Below are positions 6,318 to 55,284 of a stretch of 64,000 bases of DNA, one piece after another; the first letter of the stretch is position 1, and the number at the start of each line of letters is the position of its first letter. Position numbers and translations under genes: made by a program. The notes beneath the pieces were generated by a model. It searched no databases, was not told where the DNA came from, and saw only the letters and a program-made list of their open reading frames with translations. Origin of the DNA: Actinomycetes bacterium (lineage in GTDB: Bacteria > Actinomycetota > Acidimicrobiia > Acidimicrobiales > Ilumatobacteraceae); contig JANYKS010000007.1 of the NCBI GenBank assembly GCA_025358125.1, forward strand, positions 62,001-126,000, read 5' to 3'.

Positions 6318-7128
6318 CGCCGAACGGTCGCTGCAGGGCGATCTGCGCCAGCTTGGCGCCGAGCTCGCCGTACGTGCCGGTGCCCTGATTCTCGAGGGTC
6401 GCCGCTCCGGTATCGGCAGCGTCGACACCAAGTCGACAGGCACCGATCTCGTCACCGAGTACGACCGGGCGTCCGAACATCTCATCGTGAACGCGCTCCG
6501 TTCCGCCCGCCCCGACGACGCGATCATCGGCGAAGAAGGAACCGCCGAAGACGGCGTCAGCGGCGTCCGCTGGCTGATCGACCCGATCGACGGAACGACC
6601 AACTTCTTCTACGGCCTTCCCGGCTATGCAGTGTCCATTGCCGCAGCCGACGACGACGGAACACTCGCCGGGGCCGTGTTCGTGCCGGCCACCAACGAGT
6701 TGTTCACGGCGGCGCGGGGTGAGGGCGCGACGCTCAACGGCCATCCGATTCACTGTTCCACGACCACCGACGTCGGCCAGACGCTGCTGGCAACGGGCTT
6801 CAGCTATCACCCCGAGCTGCGCCGGGTCCACATCCGCCGGTTGCTGCACATCATCGGCGAGGTCCGCGACATTCGCCGCCTCGGCGCGGCAGCACCCGAT
6901 CTCTGCTACGTCGCCGCGGGGCGGGTCGACGCGTACTTCGAGGAGCACCTCGGCCCGTGGGACCTTGCCGCCGGCGAACTCATCGCCCGCGAGGCCGGAT
7001 GCATCTCCGCCGATCTCTCCGGAGCCCCCGCCCGCCCGGCTCAGGTCCTCGTCGCCAACCCCCACCTGTTCGAGCCGCTGCGGGCCTTGATCAACCGAGC
7101 CGACGAACTCAGCAAGACTTTCACGTAG
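6310..7128 (+). CDS. Inositol monophosphatase family protein
   Basis: This 272-aa Mg-dependent phosphatase of the IMPase/SuhB/CysQ superfamily probably dephosphorylates inositol phosphate or a related sugar phosphate in the cytoplasm. Metal-binding motifs are complete: GEEG at about residues 74-77, DPIDGTTNF at 91-99 and WDLAAGELI with Asp218. The start was chosen at the ATG giving the family N-terminus (SLQGDLRQLGAELAV). In actinobacteria inositol feeds phosphatidylinositol mannosides, and the adjacent mannose-donor synthase makes that link attractive but unproven. Confidence 0.9.
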   Translation: MNSAERSLQGDLRQLGAELAVRAGALILEGRRSGIGSVDTKSTGTDLVTEYDRASEHLIVNALRSARPDDAIIGEEGTAEDGVSGVRWLIDPIDGTTNFFYGLPGYAVSIAAADDDGTLAGAVFVPATNELFTAARGEGATLNGHPIHCSTTTDVGQTLLATGFSYHPELRRVHIRRLLHIIGEVRDIRRLGAAAPDLCYVAAGRVDAYFEEHLGPWDLAAGELIAREAGCISADLSGAPARPAQVLVANPHLFEPLRALINRADELSKTFT

Positions 7129-7211
7129 ACCCAGCGGTTCGAGCCGGCCGGGGCACACCTCCCGAACGCGGTGCGCAACCCGGCTGCGATCGCATCATGA
7201 CGATGTGGCCG

Positions 7212-7223
7212 TCACCCGGGTGA
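7212..7223 (+). promoter_or_regulatory. 12-bp palindrome TCACCCGGGTGA
   Basis: This perfect 12-bp palindrome overlaps the expected -35 position of the response-regulator promoter, whose -10 TACACT starts 9 bp further on. It is a candidate operator. No binding protein can be assigned from sequence. Confidence 0.45.
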
Positions 7224-7232
7224 GGCGCGACG

Positions 7233-7238
7233 TACACT
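7233..7238 (+). promoter_or_regulatory. -10 hexamer TACACT, leaderless
   Basis: TACACT ends 7 nt before the GTG at 7246, predicting a leaderless mRNA for the response regulator operon. The palindrome at 7212-7223 covers the -35 region. Confidence 0.55.
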
Positions 7239-7245
7239 GCCTGCT

Positions 7246-7926
7246 GTGGGAACCCGAATTCTGACTGTCGAGGACGACGAGCGCATCCGGACGGCTGTGA
7301 AGCTTGCGCTCGAAGACGAAGGGTGGACCGTCTACGAAGCGGGCAGTGGTGAGGAGGCGATCGATCTGTTCCATCACAGCTCACCCGATGTCGTGCTGAT
7401 CGACATCATGCTGCCGGGCATCGACGGATTCGAGCTCTGCCGCCATCTGCGCAAAACGAGCGATGTGCCGATCGTGATGGTCACGGCGAGAGCCGATACC
7501 CACGACATCGTCGCCGGACTCGAAGCCGGTGCTGACGACTACCTGACCAAGCCGTTCGCCCCCAAGGAGCTGTCGGCGCGGATCAGAGCGCTCCTGCGCC
7601 GGATCCGGCCGATGAGCCCCGGCCACACCAAGCTTGTTTTCGGCGATCTCGAAATCATTCCCGATGAGGGCAAGGTGCTGCGATCCGGTGTCGAGCTGCA
7701 TCTCACCAAGACCGAATTCCGCCTGCTGGTCGAGCTCGGCCAGAACCCCGGCCGGGTCTTCAGCCGTGAGTCACTGCTCGACAAGGTCTGGGGCTACGAC
7801 TATTTCGGCGACGGACGGTTGGTCGACGTGCACATTCGGCGGCTGCGCACCAAGGTCGAAGCGGATGCCGCCAACCCCCGTCACGTCGTGACAGTGCGAG
7901 GCTTGGGCTACCGACTGCAGTCGTGA
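7246..7926 (+). CDS. mtrA: OmpR-family response regulator, MtrA-like
   Basis: This is a 226-aa response regulator. The receiver domain (residues 1-115) has an acidic pocket at residues 10-11, phospho-acceptor Asp53 in LIDIMLPG and Lys102 in TKPF. The winged-helix domain (about 130-226) ends VTVRGLGYRL as in OmpR/PhoB DNA-binding domains. It overlaps the sensor kinase gene by 4 bp, and a GerMN lipoprotein gene follows. That is the actinobacterial mtrA-mtrB-lpqB order, which controls cell-wall and division genes in relatives. The symbol rests on gene order and similarity and could be wrong for this lineage. Confidence 0.85.
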   Translation: MGTRILTVEDDERIRTAVKLALEDEGWTVYEAGSGEEAIDLFHHSSPDVVLIDIMLPGIDGFELCRHLRKTSDVPIVMVTARADTHDIVAGLEAGADDYLTKPFAPKELSARIRALLRRIRPMSPGHTKLVFGDLEIIPDEGKVLRSGVELHLTKTEFRLLVELGQNPGRVFSRESLLDKVWGYDYFGDGRLVDVHIRRLRTKVEADAANPRHVVTVRGLGYRLQS

Positions 7927-9422
7927 GTTCCGCCGTGGACTCAGCGACCACCGACGCCGGCGAAGCCGCTGCGCCGCAGTCGCTGTTGTCTCGTAGCCAC
8001 CGCGCCATCATGCGTTTGCGGATCCAGCGCTTCGGCCTGAGAACGCGCATCCTGCTCATGTTCAGCATCGGCTTCCTTGCGCTGTCGATTTTCCTCGCCG
8101 CGATCACGTACAGCTTCACCAAGAGCACGCTGGTCAAACAGCGCGACAGGACGAGCGTCGAACAGGCGTTACGCGACGCCAGCGTTGCGCTCAACGAACT
8201 TCGAGCATCACCGGCCTCGGCCCAGTCCGTGATCAAGGTTTTGTCATCGCTCGGCATCCAGCGCCCGCTGCTCAACTACCGCGACGCCTGGACTCCCGGC
8301 GCACCCAGATTCGGACCCGATGTCGTCCCGGACGCGCTCAAGACGCGGGTCCTCAAGGACGGCGTCCCGGCGCGGATGATCATCACGGTCGACGGCGAGC
8401 GGGTGGTCGTCGTCGGCGTGCCGCTGCCAGAGGTAGGTGCCTCCTATTTCGAGTTCTCCAGCCTCTCCGAGGTCAATTCGACGTTGCGGAGCGTGGGTTT
8501 GTCGTTGATGTTCGCCAGCATCATCACCACCCTGTTCGGAGTCGTGCTCGGTTCGGTCGCTTCGCGTCGAGCGGTCAAGCCGCTCGGTGATGCAGCCCAG
8601 GCGGCGAAGGCGATTGCGGGTGGCCGGCTCGACACACGGCTCGAGACCAGCGAGGACAACGACCTGCGCTTGCTCGCGAACTCGTTCAACGACATGGCGT
8701 CGGCGCTCCAGCAGCGCGTCGAGCGCGACGCCCGCTTCGCGAGCGATGTCAGCCACGAACTGCGGTCACCGTTGATGACGCTCGCGGCCTCGGTCGAGGT
8801 GATGCAGGCCCGGCGCGACGAAATGCCGGAGCGGGCCCAGGCGGCTCTGGATCTCCTCGTCGGCGACGTGGCCCGGTTCCAGGGCCTCGTCGAGGACCTG
8901 CTCGAGATCTCGCGCTTCGATGCCGGCGCGATCCGGCTCCACCTCGAAGATCTCCACGTCGCCGAATTCGTTCGCCAGGCAGTGGCCGTCAGCAGCCTGC
9001 CTGCAACGCCGCTGACGGTCACCGAGCGCGCCGAACGGTTGATCATGCAGGTCGACCGGCGGCGTCTCGCCCGCGTGATCGCGAACCTGATCGACAACGC
9101 CCGTCTCCACGGCGGTGGCGAGCCGGAAGTCACCGTGAGCGAGGCGGACAACGACGGTGAGCCGCTCGGTCACGTCTGGATCGCGTTGGAGGATCACGGG
9201 GCTGGCGTTCCGATCGAAGAACGCCAGCTGGTATTCGAACGGTTCGCACGCGGCGCGGTGGCAGGGCGGAGAAGCTCCAGCGATGGCGCCGGGCTCGGTC
9301 TCGCCCTCGTCGACGAGCACGTCCGCCTTCATGGCGGAAACGTCTGGGTCGAGGACCGTCTCGATGGCGAACCGGGCGCTCGCTTCGTCATCGAATTGCC
9401 AGCGGAAGAAGTCGGCGTATGA
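7923..9422 (+). CDS. mtrB: Sensor histidine kinase, MtrB-like
   Basis: This is a 499-aa membrane histidine kinase. A cytoplasmic N-terminus is followed by a transmembrane helix (about 42-65), an extracytoplasmic domain of about 120 residues and a second helix (about 190-212). Then come a HAMP linker, a HisKA domain with phospho-acceptor His278 in DVSHELRSP and a HATPase domain with the N box (NLIDNARLHG) and G boxes (DHGAGV, GAGLGLALVDEH). The GTG start overlaps the regulator stop. It should phosphorylate the MtrA-like regulator; the stimulus is unknown. Confidence 0.88.
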   Translation: MSSAVDSATTDAGEAAAPQSLLSRSHRAIMRLRIQRFGLRTRILLMFSIGFLALSIFLAAITYSFTKSTLVKQRDRTSVEQALRDASVALNELRASPASAQSVIKVLSSLGIQRPLLNYRDAWTPGAPRFGPDVVPDALKTRVLKDGVPARMIITVDGERVVVVGVPLPEVGASYFEFSSLSEVNSTLRSVGLSLMFASIITTLFGVVLGSVASRRAVKPLGDAAQAAKAIAGGRLDTRLETSEDNDLRLLANSFNDMASALQQRVERDARFASDVSHELRSPLMTLAASVEVMQARRDEMPERAQAALDLLVGDVARFQGLVEDLLEISRFDAGAIRLHLEDLHVAEFVRQAVAVSSLPATPLTVTERAERLIMQVDRRRLARVIANLIDNARLHGGGEPEVTVSEADNDGEPLGHVWIALEDHGAGVPIEERQLVFERFARGAVAGRRSSSDGAGLGLALVDEHVRLHGGNVWVEDRLDGEPGARFVIELPAEEVGV

Positions 9423-49916: not shown

Positions 49917-50762
49917 ATGAACGACGCCCTCGCCGGGAGAGACCATTCGCTGCACGCCACTTGGCCCCTTCACCGCCGCCAACTCCTCCAGCTACTCGGC
50001 TGGTACGCCGTCATCACGGCGACATGGATCGGGATCGGCAAGCTGATCACGGGTCCGCTGAAGGACTCCGCTGTCACACGAGCTGATCTGCGGGCAGCGA
50101 AGTGGTTCGTGGCGCATCGCACGCCGACGTGGGACCGCCTGACCGTGTGGGGCTCGGGGCTCGCCGAGACGCTGACGAAAATCATCGTCACAACCGTCTT
50201 GGCGCTCGTCTTGCTGAAGGTATGGAAACGATGGTTCGAGCCGCTGATTCTCGCGGTCACGCTGATCGTCGAAGCGTCCGCGTTCATCGTCGTCACCACG
50301 GTCGTGAACCGTCCGCGCCCCCCGGTGGCGCGGCTCGACAACTCCCCGGTGGGATCGAGTTTCCCGTCGGGTCATGTGGCGGCGGCCGTTGCCTATGTCG
50401 CGATCACCGTCATCATCTTCTGGCACACCCGCAAGATCTGGGCCCGCACCTTGGCCGTGATCGTCACGGCATTGATCCCGGTAGTCGTCGCCCTGTCGCG
50501 GATGTATCGAGGCATGCATTTCCTGAGCGATGTCATTGGTGGTGCTCTACTCGGCGCGGCAGCTGTCACGATCACCGTTCTCGTGATGCGTCGTGCGCCC
50601 GAAGCCCAGCAGGCGATCAGCGACACAGACACGTCGGCACTCGAGCGGGGCGCGGCAACGAGAGCTGACACCGACGGCAGCAGTGTTGCGCCTACAGCTC
50701 GACGCTGTCGAGTTCTGGCGTCGATGCCTCCGAGGGCGGTCGCCAGTCCACGGTCGCGATGA
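49917..50762 (+). CDS. PAP2-family membrane phosphatase
   Basis: This is a 281-aa membrane protein with about five helices. All three lipid phosphatase signatures are present: the first ends VNRPRPP, the second is FPSGH and the third is SRMYRGMHFLSD. It probably dephosphorylates undecaprenyl pyrophosphate or phosphatidic-acid-type lipids on the outer face. The hydrophilic, Arg-rich C-terminus overlaps the convergent gene by 71 bp, so the last 24 codons are read on both strands. Confidence 0.88.
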   Translation: MNDALAGRDHSLHATWPLHRRQLLQLLGWYAVITATWIGIGKLITGPLKDSAVTRADLRAAKWFVAHRTPTWDRLTVWGSGLAETLTKIIVTTVLALVLLKVWKRWFEPLILAVTLIVEASAFIVVTTVVNRPRPPVARLDNSPVGSSFPSGHVAAAVAYVAITVIIFWHTRKIWARTLAVIVTALIPVVVALSRMYRGMHFLSDVIGGALLGAAAVTITVLVMRRAPEAQQAISDTDTSALERGAATRADTDGSSVAPTARRCRVLASMPPRAVASPRSR

Positions 50763-51507
50763 GCCACCACGCGGCGAGAAGCAGTGCGGCCGCGATGGAG
50801 AGGCCGATCACCAAGCGCGTGGGCGAGTAGCGCGGGGTTGGCAACGCCGAGAACTTCACGTCGACGAGCACCTCTCGGGCACCACTGATGACGGCGACGC
50901 CGCAGTCGTCGCAACGACTGGAGATGACGACCGAGGCAGCGGCTGTCCCGTCGGCACCTGCGACAGCGGTGGCGAACTTGCCACATCGGGGGTCACAGAA
51001 CGCGACGGACATTTCCGCTCCAGGGACAAGCGATGCGACGGCGACCTGTACGGTCTCGCCCTGCGAATACGGTCCCACCGGCGACAGCGCGACCTCAGGC
51101 GGAGTCGGCGCCGACGCCCCGAAGACCATGAGCGCGTATGCCACTCCCCCGTCCGCATCGTCCACCACGAGCGCGCACGACCCGTTGACGCCGCAGATGC
51201 CCGGATCCTCGATTTGGTATTGGAAGGCAGCGCTGCCGTCGTGGCCGAACTGCACTTGGAATCCGTTGCTGCATGCGGTGAAGCGATCGTCGGTGCGAAT
51301 GCACTGGTGGACAGCGCCGCTGGCCCCGGAGAGGCTGCCATCCACGAACACTCGCAGGACATCACCGTCCTCGAGCCGGTCGATCACGGGCGCCGGCGTC
51401 GAGAAGTTCGTGATGGGTCGGATGCGAAGGTGGACCTCTCGGGCTTCGTCCGCGCTCGCGACCGGCATCCCGAGCATGACAGCCGTGGCGGCCAGGCGCG
51501 CCAACAT
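50692..51507 (-). CDS. Secreted, C-terminally anchored protein with neocarzinostatin-like domain
   Basis: This is a 271-aa exported protein. A signal peptide (cleavage near ASA-DE, residue 19) is followed by two beta-rich segments and a transmembrane helix near residues 229-248 with a short cytoplasmic end. The second segment, VALSPVGPYSQGETVQVAVASLVPGAEM then FCDPRC and DCG, follows the pattern of neocarzinostatin-like immunoglobulin folds. Six or more cysteines suggest disulfides. It is the last gene of the ECF sigma operon, so it may be a sensor or the protected envelope component. Confidence 0.7.
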   Translation of the reverse strand: MLARLAATAVMLGMPVASADEAREVHLRIRPITNFSTPAPVIDRLEDGDVLRVFVDGSLSGASGAVHQCIRTDDRFTACSNGFQVQFGHDGSAAFQYQIEDPGICGVNGSCALVVDDADGGVAYALMVFGASAPTPPEVALSPVGPYSQGETVQVAVASLVPGAEMSVAFCDPRCGKFATAVAGADGTAAASVVISSRCDDCGVAVISGAREVLVDVKFSALPTPRYSPTRLVIGLSIAAALLLAAWWLIATVDWRPPSEASTPELDSVEL

Positions 51508-51519
51508 CTGGACGACGTC

Positions 51520-52143
51520 TCAGTCGTGCTCGGGCGGAGGGGACGTGGACTCCTCGAGCTGGCGGTTCAATGTGAGAAGACGGCCCATGACGGGCAGCGC
51601 GAGCAGGTTCGCGCTGTGGAGAACCCCGATGATGAGGAGAATGCCGCCGACGCGAGCTGTCTCGTGCTGCAGTTGGGCGGCATTGACTGTCTCCGCCCAC
51701 GAGCCTTTCGGCTCGAAGCTCAGCGTGAACAAGATGTACGAGAAGAAGATCAGGTAGTAGGCGACATCGGTGAGCATGATGAAGCTCTTGCCCGTGCGTG
51801 GATTGGCACGGAAGACGTCGGCGGCGTAGCTGCGCCCAAACCTCTTGATCAACGGCCCGAGCCAGAACGCGATCGCGATCAGCAAGCCGACAGTGATGAG
51901 TTCCAGCACCCACCAGTCCATGAGAAGACCTCCTTGTTGTTGTACACCGGTGACGGCAATGACGATCGAGGCGATCGAGCAGGCAACGCACGCCAGCACA
52001 CCAATGAGTGCGGTGTGCTGGCGACGCAGGAGCCGATCGTCTTCGATGCTGATCTCGACCCGGGCGAACAGGTCGTCGCTCTCGCCGACGGCGTCGGCGC
52101 TCTCGCGCAAGGCTTCGCGGAGTCGTTCCTCGATCGCGGTCAT
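51520..52143 (-). CDS. Membrane protein, putative anti-sigma factor
   Basis: This is a 207-aa protein. A charged, helical cytoplasmic N-terminus (IEERLREALRESADAVGESDDLF) is followed by four hydrophobic segments at about residues 43-65, 73-95, 120-142 and 160-182. The gene overlaps the sigma-factor gene by 4 bp (ATGA), the usual arrangement for an ECF sigma and its regulator. The N-terminus resembles those of actinobacterial SigE-family partner proteins. No zinc-binding anti-sigma motif is seen, so the assignment rests on context. Confidence 0.62.
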   Translation of the reverse strand: MTAIEERLREALRESADAVGESDDLFARVEISIEDDRLLRRQHTALIGVLACVACSIASIVIAVTGVQQQGGLLMDWWVLELITVGLLIAIAFWLGPLIKRFGRSYAADVFRANPRTGKSFIMLTDVAYYLIFFSYILFTLSFEPKGSWAETVNAAQLQHETARVGGILLIIGVLHSANLLALPVMGRLLTLNRQLEESTSPPPEHD

Positions 52144-52760
52144 GGCTCTGCCATCTCCACCAGATGCGACTCGAGTGCTGCGAGGCCGCGCTGCAGATGA
52201 GTTTTCACGGAGTTGCGTGACAGGCCGAGCGATGCAGCAATCTCTTCGACGCCGAGCTCGTCGTAGTAGCGCAGTACGAGGCAGGTGCGCTGCCGTGCGG
52301 GGAGCTCGCGCAACGCGTCGAGCACACGACGTTGGTCGTCGCGGAGATCGAACTCGTCTTCCACTCCCTGCTGTGGGTGGGTCAACGGAAGGCGGTGGCG
52401 CATCGACACCAGGCCGCGCCGGTTGTGGTCGCGAGCAAGGTTGAGCACGATTGACCGTAAATAGGCCGGTGCCCGCTCGGGATCGGCGATGCGGTGGACG
52501 CTGCGGGCCAGGCGGATGAAGGACTCTTGCACGAGATCCTCGGCTGCGTTGCGATCGTCGACGAACAGCCGGGCGAGGCGCACGAGCGACGCGCTGTGGG
52601 CGCGGAACATGTCGGAGACGAATTCGTCGATGTCGGGCAGTGCCGCGACGTTCACCGCGTGGGCGGCCAGCGGTATCTCGACCACGAACACGGCAGGCGC
52701 GTTGCACCAGGCGAACAACGCGCTGCGAAGCCGCAACTCGACGGATCTCACGAGTGCCAT
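52140..52760 (-). CDS. ECF sigma factor, SigE-family type
   Basis: This is a 206-aa extracytoplasmic-function sigma factor. Region 2 (about residues 50-115) contains RLARLFVDDRNAAEDLVQESF for core and -10 binding. Region 4 (about 145-200) has LPARQRTCLVLRYYDELGVEEIA then SRNSVKTHLQRGLAAL for -35 binding. No extra C-terminal domain is present. A GTG at about codon 26 is an alternative start. It sits 17 bp behind the ABC permease gene and is predicted to read the paired promoters at 54517-54631. Confidence 0.88.
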   Translation of the reverse strand: MALVRSVELRLRSALFAWCNAPAVFVVEIPLAAHAVNVAALPDIDEFVSDMFRAHSASLVRLARLFVDDRNAAEDLVQESFIRLARSVHRIADPERAPAYLRSIVLNLARDHNRRGLVSMRHRLPLTHPQQGVEDEFDLRDDQRRVLDALRELPARQRTCLVLRYYDELGVEEIAASLGLSRNSVKTHLQRGLAALESHLVEMAEP

Positions 52761-52777: not shown

Positions 52778-53587
52778 TCAGGTCGTGACGACATCACGCC
52801 GGGCGAACAGCGTTGTAGCTGTCGCGACCACAGTGGCCAGGTAGGCCACGAGCGCGAGCAACGCGACGATCGGAGGACGTTCGAACTTGACGTCGCTCAA
52901 TTTCGCCCACCGGACCACGATGGCAACGTTTTCAGCGATCATGAAACGGGCGAGTCTCGGCCAGAAGCCCGCGACCAAGCGTTCGATCACCAGCGCCCAG
53001 GCCGCGAGCACAACCAGCGCCGCGCTCGTGTTGCGTCCGATCGTGGCGATGCTGACGGCCAGAACGGCCACGAGCGAGGTGACGAGCGATATCCGCAGCA
53101 TCGCGAGCGGCAGCGCAGCCCACCATGATGCGTCCGTCCCTGCAGTGCTTCCGTGGGCTGCCACGGCCGGCACGGCAGACGCGAGGTACAGCACTTGGAT
53201 CAAGAAGCTGATGACGAACGCCAGGAGTGCAGCCGAACAGGTGCGCGCGCCGTGCAGGCGCACACGAGACGGAACCCACGTCAGCATCGTCGTCATGGTC
53301 CCAGCACGCCACTCGGCGCCTGCGACGGATGCGCCGCAGATGGCTGCACCCACGACGAGGAAGAGCGCGGCGACGGTGAGGAAATCGTCGCCGCCCGATC
53401 CCCACCAGTTCGCCATCCGCGCAGGATGACCCTCGTCTTGGGCGAACCGCACCGGGTCCGCGCTCGACAAGAACACAACGAGTCCAGTGACAGCGCAGCC
53501 GACGACGGCTATCACGACCATCCATCGCACCAACCGGCGGTGAAGTGCTCGCCGCATCTCCACAACCGTCAACCGTAGAAATGTCAT
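52778..53587 (-). CDS. ABC transporter permease
   Basis: This is a 269-aa membrane protein with about six helices, of the ABC-2 type. It has a charged N-terminal helix, a large first extracytoplasmic loop with ARMANWWGSGGDDF, GAEWRAGTMTTMLTW as the coupling-like motif and a final transmembrane helix ending FARRDVVTT. It overlaps the ATPase gene by 4 bp. The substrate is unknown; antimicrobial or lipid export is typical for such pairs. Confidence 0.83.
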   Translation of the reverse strand: MTFLRLTVVEMRRALHRRLVRWMVVIAVVGCAVTGLVVFLSSADPVRFAQDEGHPARMANWWGSGGDDFLTVAALFLVVGAAICGASVAGAEWRAGTMTTMLTWVPSRVRLHGARTCSAALLAFVISFLIQVLYLASAVPAVAAHGSTAGTDASWWAALPLAMLRISLVTSLVAVLAVSIATIGRNTSAALVVLAAWALVIERLVAGFWPRLARFMIAENVAIVVRWAKLSDVKFERPPIVALLALVAYLATVVATATTLFARRDVVTT

Positions 53588-54510
53588 GACAGGACCTCCT
53601 CGTGCGCTGTGATGCTCAAGAACAACTCTTCGAGGCTGACCGAATCCGGTCGAAGCTCGCTGACGTACAACCCCGCGTCCGCGAGCAGCCTGGTGACATG
53701 CGCTGCGTCAGATGCTGGCAATGCCACGCGGAGATGCCCGCCGTCGACAGCGACCGACAGCCCGGCGCTGCGCAGCGTCTCGGCACCGGCGTCCATGTCG
53801 TCGAGCACGACCAGCAGCGACGGACGGGAGGCCTCTGCCAAGACATCGTCGACGCGGCCGCTCAACACCAGCCTGCCGCGGTCGAGGATCGCCACCCGGT
53901 CACACGTCTGCTCGACCTCGGTCAGGAGATGACTCGATACGAAAACCGTCCGGCCTTCACGTCCCAACAGGCGGAGCAGCTCTCGGATCTCCCGCATCCC
54001 GGCCGGGTCGAGACCGTTCTCAGGCTCGTCCAGAATGAGCAGAGCGGGATCCTTCAGCAATGCGGCCGCGAGACCGAGACGCTGGCGCATGCCGAGCGAA
54101 TACGTACGGACCTTGTGGTCGGCGCGCTCACCGAGCCCCACCGCGTCGAGGCTCTCCGCCACTCGCCGTCGGCCAATGCCGTCGATCGCACCGAGGAGAT
54201 GAAGGTTCTCCCGCGCGGTCATCGTCGGGAACATCGCCGGGGTTTCGACAATCGCGCCGACGTTGGGCATCACCGTCGACAACTCGCCAGGCGTGACGCG
54301 GCCGAGCACCGCTGTGGTGCCCGACGTGGCGGAAACGAGTCCGAGCATGCAGCGAATGGTGGTGGTCTTGCCCGACCCGTTCGGTCCGAGGAACCCGAAC
54401 ACCCCACCCTCCGGCACCGTCAGGTCCAGACCGTCCACCGCGCAAAAGGGCCGACCACGTCGACGGCGGTACTCCTTGCGCAGACCCTCGATCTCGATGA
54501 TTGCTGTCAT
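53584..54510 (-). CDS. ABC transporter ATP-binding protein
   Basis: This is a 308-aa ATPase with Walker A GPNGSGKTT, a signature motif in the degenerate form YSLGMRQRLGLA, Walker B LLILDEPENGLDP and the switch His in VSSHLL. The C-terminal 80 residues are the extension typical of drug or natA-like exporters. The ATG lies 6 nt after the minus-strand -10-like CGTCTGTT (10 nt after its CGTC core), so the operon mRNA should be leaderless. First gene of the ECF sigma operon. Confidence 0.9.
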   Translation of the reverse strand: MTAIIEIEGLRKEYRRRRGRPFCAVDGLDLTVPEGGVFGFLGPNGSGKTTTIRCMLGLVSATSGTTAVLGRVTPGELSTVMPNVGAIVETPAMFPTMTARENLHLLGAIDGIGRRRVAESLDAVGLGERADHKVRTYSLGMRQRLGLAAALLKDPALLILDEPENGLDPAGMREIRELLRLLGREGRTVFVSSHLLTEVEQTCDRVAILDRGRLVLSGRVDDVLAEASRPSLLVVLDDMDAGAETLRSAGLSVAVDGGHLRVALPASDAAHVTRLLADAGLYVSELRPDSVSLEELFLSITAHEEVLS

Positions 54511-54516
54511 GGAACA

Positions 54517-54551
54517 AACAGACGTGGAAGATGCCGGCGCGGGTGACAAGC
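54517..54551 (-). promoter_or_regulatory. ECF-type promoter for ABC-sigma operon
   Basis: Reading the minus strand: GCTTGTCACCCGC (54539-54551), a 14-bp spacer, then CGTCTGTT (54517-54524). The identical 21 box bases with the same spacing occur on the plus strand in front of sodC. CGTC-type -10 elements are typical of ECF sigma factors. The ATPase ATG follows directly, so the transcript is predicted to be leaderless. Confidence 0.72.
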
Positions 54552-54596
54552 AATCGGAACATCGTCGAGACCGGGCGCGGGAAAAGAAATAAGCGG

Positions 54597-54631
54597 GCTT
54601 GTCACCCGCAAGGCTGACGCAGACGTCTGTT
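54597..54631 (+). promoter_or_regulatory. ECF-type promoter for sodC
   Basis: GCTTGTCACCCGC (54597-54609), 14-bp spacer, CGTCTGTT (54624-54631), identical to the divergent copy. The spacer sequences differ, so only the boxes are conserved. A leader of about 45 nt with AAGGAGA precedes the sodC ATG. Confidence 0.72.
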
Positions 54632-54684: not shown

Positions 54685-55284
54685 ATGAGACTTCGAGCAA
54701 CACATCTGGCCGGCGCAGTCATCGCCTCGGCGGGCCTCGGCATCGGGGCGGTAGCGATCAGTTCCGGCGCCGGTGCACACGAGAACGAAGCGCAGGCCAC
54801 CCTGTACTCGACCACTGGCCTCAAGATCGGCAAGGTCGATTTCAGCACCGATGACGGACACACCAAGGTGCGTGTGCATCTGGACAGCGCACCCGGCGTC
54901 GACGCCTTCCATGGCTTTCACATTCATGCCAACAACAACTCATCCAATGGCGATGGCTGCATTGCGAGCGGCAACTTCGTCTCCGCCGACGGGCACTGGA
55001 AGCTGGCCGGCGAGACCCATGGGCACCATCAGGGCGATATGCCGAGCGTCTACGTCAACGGTGACGGCAGCGCGGACTCACGCTTCACCCTCGACCGCTT
55101 CGACCCGGCAGACCTACCTGGCAAGGTCGTCATCCTCCACGCCGGAGCGGACAACTTTGGCAACGTCCCCGTCGGGATCGCGCCCGATCAGTACACAGCG
55201 AACGGGCAGGCAGCACTCGATGCGACGGCTGCAACCGGTAACGCCGGCGCACGCGTTGCGTGCGGAGTGATCAGCGAGCGCTAG
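54685..55284 (+). CDS. sodC: Secreted Cu/Zn superoxide dismutase
   Basis: This is a 199-aa exported superoxide dismutase. A signal peptide of about 30 residues ends near GAGAHE. Copper and zinc ligands are visible as His79 and His81 (GFHIHAN), His104, His112, His115, Asp118 and His152. The disulfide cysteines are 92 and 193, and the active-site Arg is 190 (NAGARVACGVI). It removes superoxide outside the cytoplasm. AAGGAGA precedes the ATG. Its promoter carries the same bipartite motif as the adjacent ECF sigma operon. Confidence 0.9.
   Translation: MRLRATHLAGAVIASAGLGIGAVAISSGAGAHENEAQATLYSTTGLKIGKVDFSTDDGHTKVRVHLDSAPGVDAFHGFHIHANNNSSNGDGCIASGNFVSADGHWKLAGETHGHHQGDMPSVYVNGDGSADSRFTLDRFDPADLPGKVVILHAGADNFGNVPVGIAPDQYTANGQAALDATAATGNAGARVACGVISER

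Follow-up and report, generated by a model that had tools for sequence, protein, structure and literature searches.

Between the start of an ABC transporter ATPase gene (54510) and that of sodC (54685), the 64,000-nucleotide stretch of actinobacterial DNA analysed here (the window) has a gap of 174 bp in which one bipartite element, GCTTGTCACCCGC-N14-CGTCTGTT, occurs once on each strand, raising the question of which regulator reads this outward-facing pair and which genes it serves. The first-pass annotation had described 21 identical box bases with identical spacing and differing spacers; the two sites indeed agree with zero mismatches and differ in their spacers, and no further match within 3 mismatches is found in the window, nor any in shuffled sequences. 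The 21-base box itself holds up in part: TGTCACCCG and CGTCTGT are kept in relatives, whereas the outer GCT and the trailing GC are not. The features of the locus are collected in Table 1.

Table 1. Predicted promoters and genes of the divergent sigma factor/sodC locus (window coordinates).
Feature	Position	Strand	Remarks
Leftward ECF-type promoter (predicted)	54517-54551	-	-35 TGTCACCCG 54548-54540, -10 CGTCTGT 54524-54518
Rightward ECF-type promoter (predicted)	54597-54631	+	-35 TGTCACCCG 54600-54608, -10 CGTCTGT 54624-54630
sodC, secreted Cu/Zn superoxide dismutase	54685-55284	+	Sod_Cu domain (Pfam); nearest solved structure, mycobacterial SodC
ABC transporter ATPase	53584-54510	-	First gene of leftward operon
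ABC-2 type permease	52778-53587	-	Weak Pfam match; 4-bp overlap with ATPase gene
ECF sigma factor, SigE-like	52140-52760	-	TIGR02983 best subfamily; 17-bp gap to permease
ASF, putative membrane anti-sigma	51520-52143	-	4-bp overlap (ATGA) with sigma stop codon
Secreted protein, C-terminal hydrophobic helix	50692-51507	-	Weakly like neocarzinostatin/enediyne apoproteins

On the left of the gap, the genes for the ATPase, the permease, the sigma factor, ASF and then the secreted protein form a tight operon. The leftward site would drive its ATPase-permease-sigma-ASF part, and the rightward site sodC, with a predicted leader of about 50 nt in which a good ribosome-binding site, AAGGAG, can be read. 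The leftward CGTC ends 10 nt ahead of the ATPase ATG, which lies 14 nt after the C of CGTC, and the leftward mRNA should therefore be nearly leaderless. The sodC product carries a Cu/Zn superoxide dismutase domain (Sod_Cu, 77.7 bits against a cut-off of 28.9), and its copper histidines H79, H81, H104 and H152 are invariant in the SOD alignment. The secreted protein at 50692-51507 is kept behind ASF as the last gene in several sigma operons.

The call of an ECF sigma factor at 52140-52760 is confirmed by its Pfam regions and a SigE-like profile match. The 206-residue product has Sigma70_r2 at 51-115 and r4_2 at 144-196 and no region 3, the domain composition that defines ECF factors. Its best-scoring subfamily, as for all 13 aligned orthologues, is the SigE family TIGR02983, although at 135.7 bits it stays narrowly under the cut-off of 141.55. 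Among 149 relatives, a search with the sigma protein as query returned 12 close orthologues outside the home genome (53-70% identity), all of which adjoin an ASF gene; most have the motif, several of them twice and facing outward. The position of the motif in most loci is consistent with the bipartite promoter, CGTC-like -10 and autoregulation expected of an ECF factor. The 207-residue ASF is predicted to have two helices at its N-terminus, and its long hydrophobic helices amount, by inspection, to about four transmembrane (TM) segments (predicted structure: pLDDT 79, pTM 0.54). It matches no Pfam or NCBIfam family; PDB and Pfam profile searches and a fold search with the model returned nothing significant, and a search for ASF on plasmids no match. 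The place of its gene, the translational coupling and the layout point to a membrane anti-sigma factor. In certain lineages the first gene behind the promoter encodes a stand-alone 3-TM form of ASF that lacks the N-terminal part; sigma and a second, full-length ASF come after it (L052:3841-4281, L055:7240-7746, L172, L178, L206, L211).

Our main reading, to which we assign a probability of roughly 0.87, is that a single ECF sigma factor, the 52140-52760 product, reads both sites as promoters facing outward and would govern an autoregulated regulon with an extracytoplasmic superoxide dismutase as its core output. The genome-wide scan that the first-pass annotation had called for indicates a rare motif: TGTCACC-N15-20-CGTCTG has exactly 3 matches in the 4,055,436 bases of the home genome, and the reversed pattern has 0 in the same 4.06 Mb. 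The matches are the window pair and a site at C93:17085, with a spacer one base longer, which precedes the gene of a PEP-utilizing enzyme and is unlinked to sigma. Looser patterns were discarded: two mismatches gave 47 matches against 16 in the control, too loose for use, and TGTCACC-N16-18-CGTC without CTGT gave 18 against 4, the three CCCG sites being the only credible-looking ones. A short ferredoxin-like ORF lies between the C93 site and the enzyme gene, which itself occupies two overlapping frames (L043:6435-8167, with frames 6435-7202 and 7163-8167); the homologue in genome G082 is one 586-residue frame, and the split on C93 is a frameshift or assembly error.

Using the ASF alignment alone, 80 loci (728 kb) were fetched from GTDB genomes of Acidimicrobiia (including Ilumatobacteraceae), Kribbella, Nocardioides, Pedococcus, Phycicoccus, Intrasporangium, Terrabacter, Humibacillus and Nitriliruptoraceae. 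As the named relatives are mostly Acidimicrobiia, the window itself probably comes from an acidimicrobial genome. TGTCACC-N15-19-CGTC[TC] has 90 sites in 69 of these 80 loci, and its reversed version has none in the same 728 kb. With a weight matrix the count is 118 sites, against zero in reversed decoys, and at least 24 of the 80 loci have two copies facing outward. These counts are not fully independent, since the loci scanned had also served to train the matrix and include near-duplicates (e.g., L203 and L207). The divergent sigma/SOD layout is old and common to several actinobacterial lineages.

The motif also follows the gene pair from genome to genome. Within the order, where ASF is present in 18 of 397 genomes, TGTCACC-N16-18-CGTCTGT occurs in 12/18 genomes with ASF versus 12/379 without it (Fisher p 1.6e-12), and the CCCG form in 11/18 versus 2/379 (Fisher p 2.9e-15). 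A point against the main reading is that the strict motif is missing from 6 of the 18, although variants occur. Of the two exceptions of the opposite kind, one, the 84%-complete genome G435, lacks ASF and has a motif site ahead of a homologue of the same ABC ATPase. Outside the order, the phylum-wide sample has the motif in 7 of 11 genomes with ASF versus 4 of 355 without, and the reversed control matches in none of 396 genomes. Since several of the sites are on other contigs or distant from the sigma locus, co-occurrence with the sigma-ASF pair is the best argument for the local sigma as the reader. The proposed link between motif and sigma appears to extend to unlinked sites.

The same counts weigh on the alternative that survives best, namely that these are ECF promoters read by another sigma factor encoded elsewhere, with the local sigma as one target in a cascade, or by several sigmas sharing the motif. 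Further SigE-like sigmas are indeed encoded in the home genome (3 matches at 1e-10), and the promoter of ECF41 factors, TGTCACA-n16-CGTC, is similar (PMC3426412), but the motif is rare where the sigma-ASF pair is missing, despite the presence of other ECF sigmas (2/379 and 4/355 genomes), and we consider this alternative improbable.

The geometry of the sites is promoter-like. The spacing from TGTCACC to CGTC is 17 bp in 76 sites, 18 bp in 30 and 16 bp in 2, so that all three spacer variants foreseen earlier are represented (in that count, N14, N15 and N13, respectively). Positions 8 and 9 of the -35 element, which the search did not impose, are C in 95% and G in 77% of sites, respectively, while the seventh base was fixed by the search pattern; TGT after CGTC is kept in about 90%. 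The sites also share a conserved RTGA starting 8 nt past CGTC, a position that fits the start point predicted 7-8 nt after CGTC. Counted from the C of CGTC, ATG or GTG stands at +11 in 47 of 108 sites and at +14 in 34 of 108 (expected, 4.4), and an ATG at +14 is usually a real gene start. The spike at +11 was also considered as a sign of leaderless mRNAs and rejected, all nine ATGs counted and 12 GTGs opening short frames only; since many +11 triplets do so, RTGA more likely belongs to the start region, as an initiation element.

Two boxes at a fixed distance could also describe a bipartite operator bound by a transcription factor rather than a promoter, but the motif is directional and non-palindromic and points at the downstream gene, its spacer jitters by 1 bp as is typical of promoters, its -10 is ECF-like (CGTC), a conserved start region follows 8 nt beyond, and sigma-ASF is the only common regulator gene that accompanies it, which leaves the operator very improbable. 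Chance, or recent duplication of one stretch, might be suggested by the identity of the window copies over 21 box bases, but it has a negligible probability given the unrelated spacers, the three copies per genome, the absence of matches in shuffles and, effectively refuting it, the conservation across lineages.

With the sites read as promoters of the local sigma, the first genes behind 108 of them outline the candidate regulon. Sigma itself is first in 42 cases, and stand-alone ASF-like membrane proteins heading sigma operons in 14. Another 19 form a linked group, whose members are SodC, SOD-like proteins and a membrane protein bearing the motif WMR-IS-PEFSW; other targets are ABC ATPases (4), small membrane proteins, two related lipoproteins and two PEP-utilizing enzymes. 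The sites of the latter two, unlinked to sigma and in two different genomes (C93 of the home genome and C140 of G082), are, as predicted promoters, an independent case of a conserved target. In about 25 of the 80 loci a SOD-like gene is transcribed divergently from sigma, and the gene of the WMR membrane protein often comes next; most of those lacking the strict pattern carry a near match to it at the expected place, e.g., CGTCACCCG or TGTCGCCCG. The earlier proposal that the motif serves both the sigma operon and sodC appears to apply well beyond the window, with the motif lying ahead of sigma operons and of genes for SOD-like proteins at many distant loci. Eight aligned SOD-like proteins have four copper-type histidines and two cysteines in common; Pfam is weak or silent for the distant ones, which lack the zinc loop and therefore look like copper-only SODs. 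The WMR-IS-PEFSW protein, found at L150, L155, L164, L166, L170 and L208, belongs to no Pfam family, and its gene shares an operon with the SOD-like gene at many loci. A one-direction version of the locus (L145:2117-5585) has one site followed by the SOD-like gene, ATPase, permease, sigma and ASF in an apparent single operon.

Judged from comparative sequence data, the locus very probably encodes a real, apparently undescribed protective circuit. As a plausible mechanism, ASF would release sigma upon an envelope signal, presumably of oxidative or envelope nature, and the free sigma would direct RNA polymerase to TGTCACCCG-N15/16-CGTCTGT. Leftward transcription would then raise the ABC exporter, sigma itself, ASF and the secreted protein, providing positive feedback with a built-in inhibitor, while rightward transcription would yield the secreted superoxide dismutase. 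More tentatively, at somewhat less than even odds, the system may represent an undescribed ECF group widespread in Actinomycetota, whose core output would be a secreted Cu/Zn or copper-only SOD together with a novel partner membrane protein, and whose multi-TM anti-sigma would be a sensor of a new type, forming a dedicated sigma pathway against superoxide or copper/redox stress beyond the cytoplasmic membrane. Many ECF groups are without a known regulon or signal; here, sequence comparison gives the promoter, start region, core targets and probable regulator for one ECF system in several actinobacterial lineages, which include named cultured strains of Nocardioides, Kribbella and Phycicoccus, and the existence of a sigma pathway devoted to superoxide defence outside the cell membrane becomes directly testable.

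Membrane anti-sigma factors of ECF sigmas fall into classes that include class I, with a zinc motif, and class II, CnrY-like with two helices (PMC7406223). ASF is like known membrane anti-sigmas in being translationally coupled behind sigma and in having a short helical N-terminal part before its first TM helix, and its two short helices bear a resemblance to class II factors (PMC7406223). It differs in its several TM helices, in matching no anti-sigma profile and in having no Hx3Cx2C motif anywhere in the ASF alignment, an absence that does not by itself exclude an anti-sigma role, as many class I factors lack zinc. The extra copy that precedes sigma in some lineages, lacking the N-terminal part, is a further departure from known anti-sigmas. 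In the ECF56 pair SigG1-RsfG of Streptomyces tsukubaensis, too, an actinobacterial ECF sigma is co-transcribed with a non-classical anti-sigma and tied to metal/redox homeostasis, but SigG1 carries a SnoaL_2 extension, the text gives no TGTC or CGTC motif, and the reported direct targets differ (PMC7730460).

As the first-pass annotation had supposed, no described regulon with this motif and gene set was found in the literature searched, whether for the SigE family or as a SOD-centred ECF regulon, and the motif itself was not described there, although the 2021 ECF reclassification may list a predicted one. Of the published motifs found, that of ECF41 sigmas, TGTCACA-n16-CGTC, comes closest; these sigmas have a fused C-terminal regulatory domain (PMC3426412). 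The two systems share an ECF sigma, a nearly identical -35 core (TGTCAC) and -10 (CGTC), a similar spacing and autoregulatory or neighbouring targets. In contrast to ECF41, the window sigma is without the fused extension, its region 4 ending at residue 196 of 206, and the -35 element in the window and its relatives is TGTCACCCG, with C as the seventh base (fixed by the search) and then CG. ECF41 drives COE genes, whereas the window system pairs SOD and ABC genes with the -10 CGTCTGT and a separate membrane protein; what looks undescribed is the regulon, together with the conserved divergent sigma/SOD architecture.
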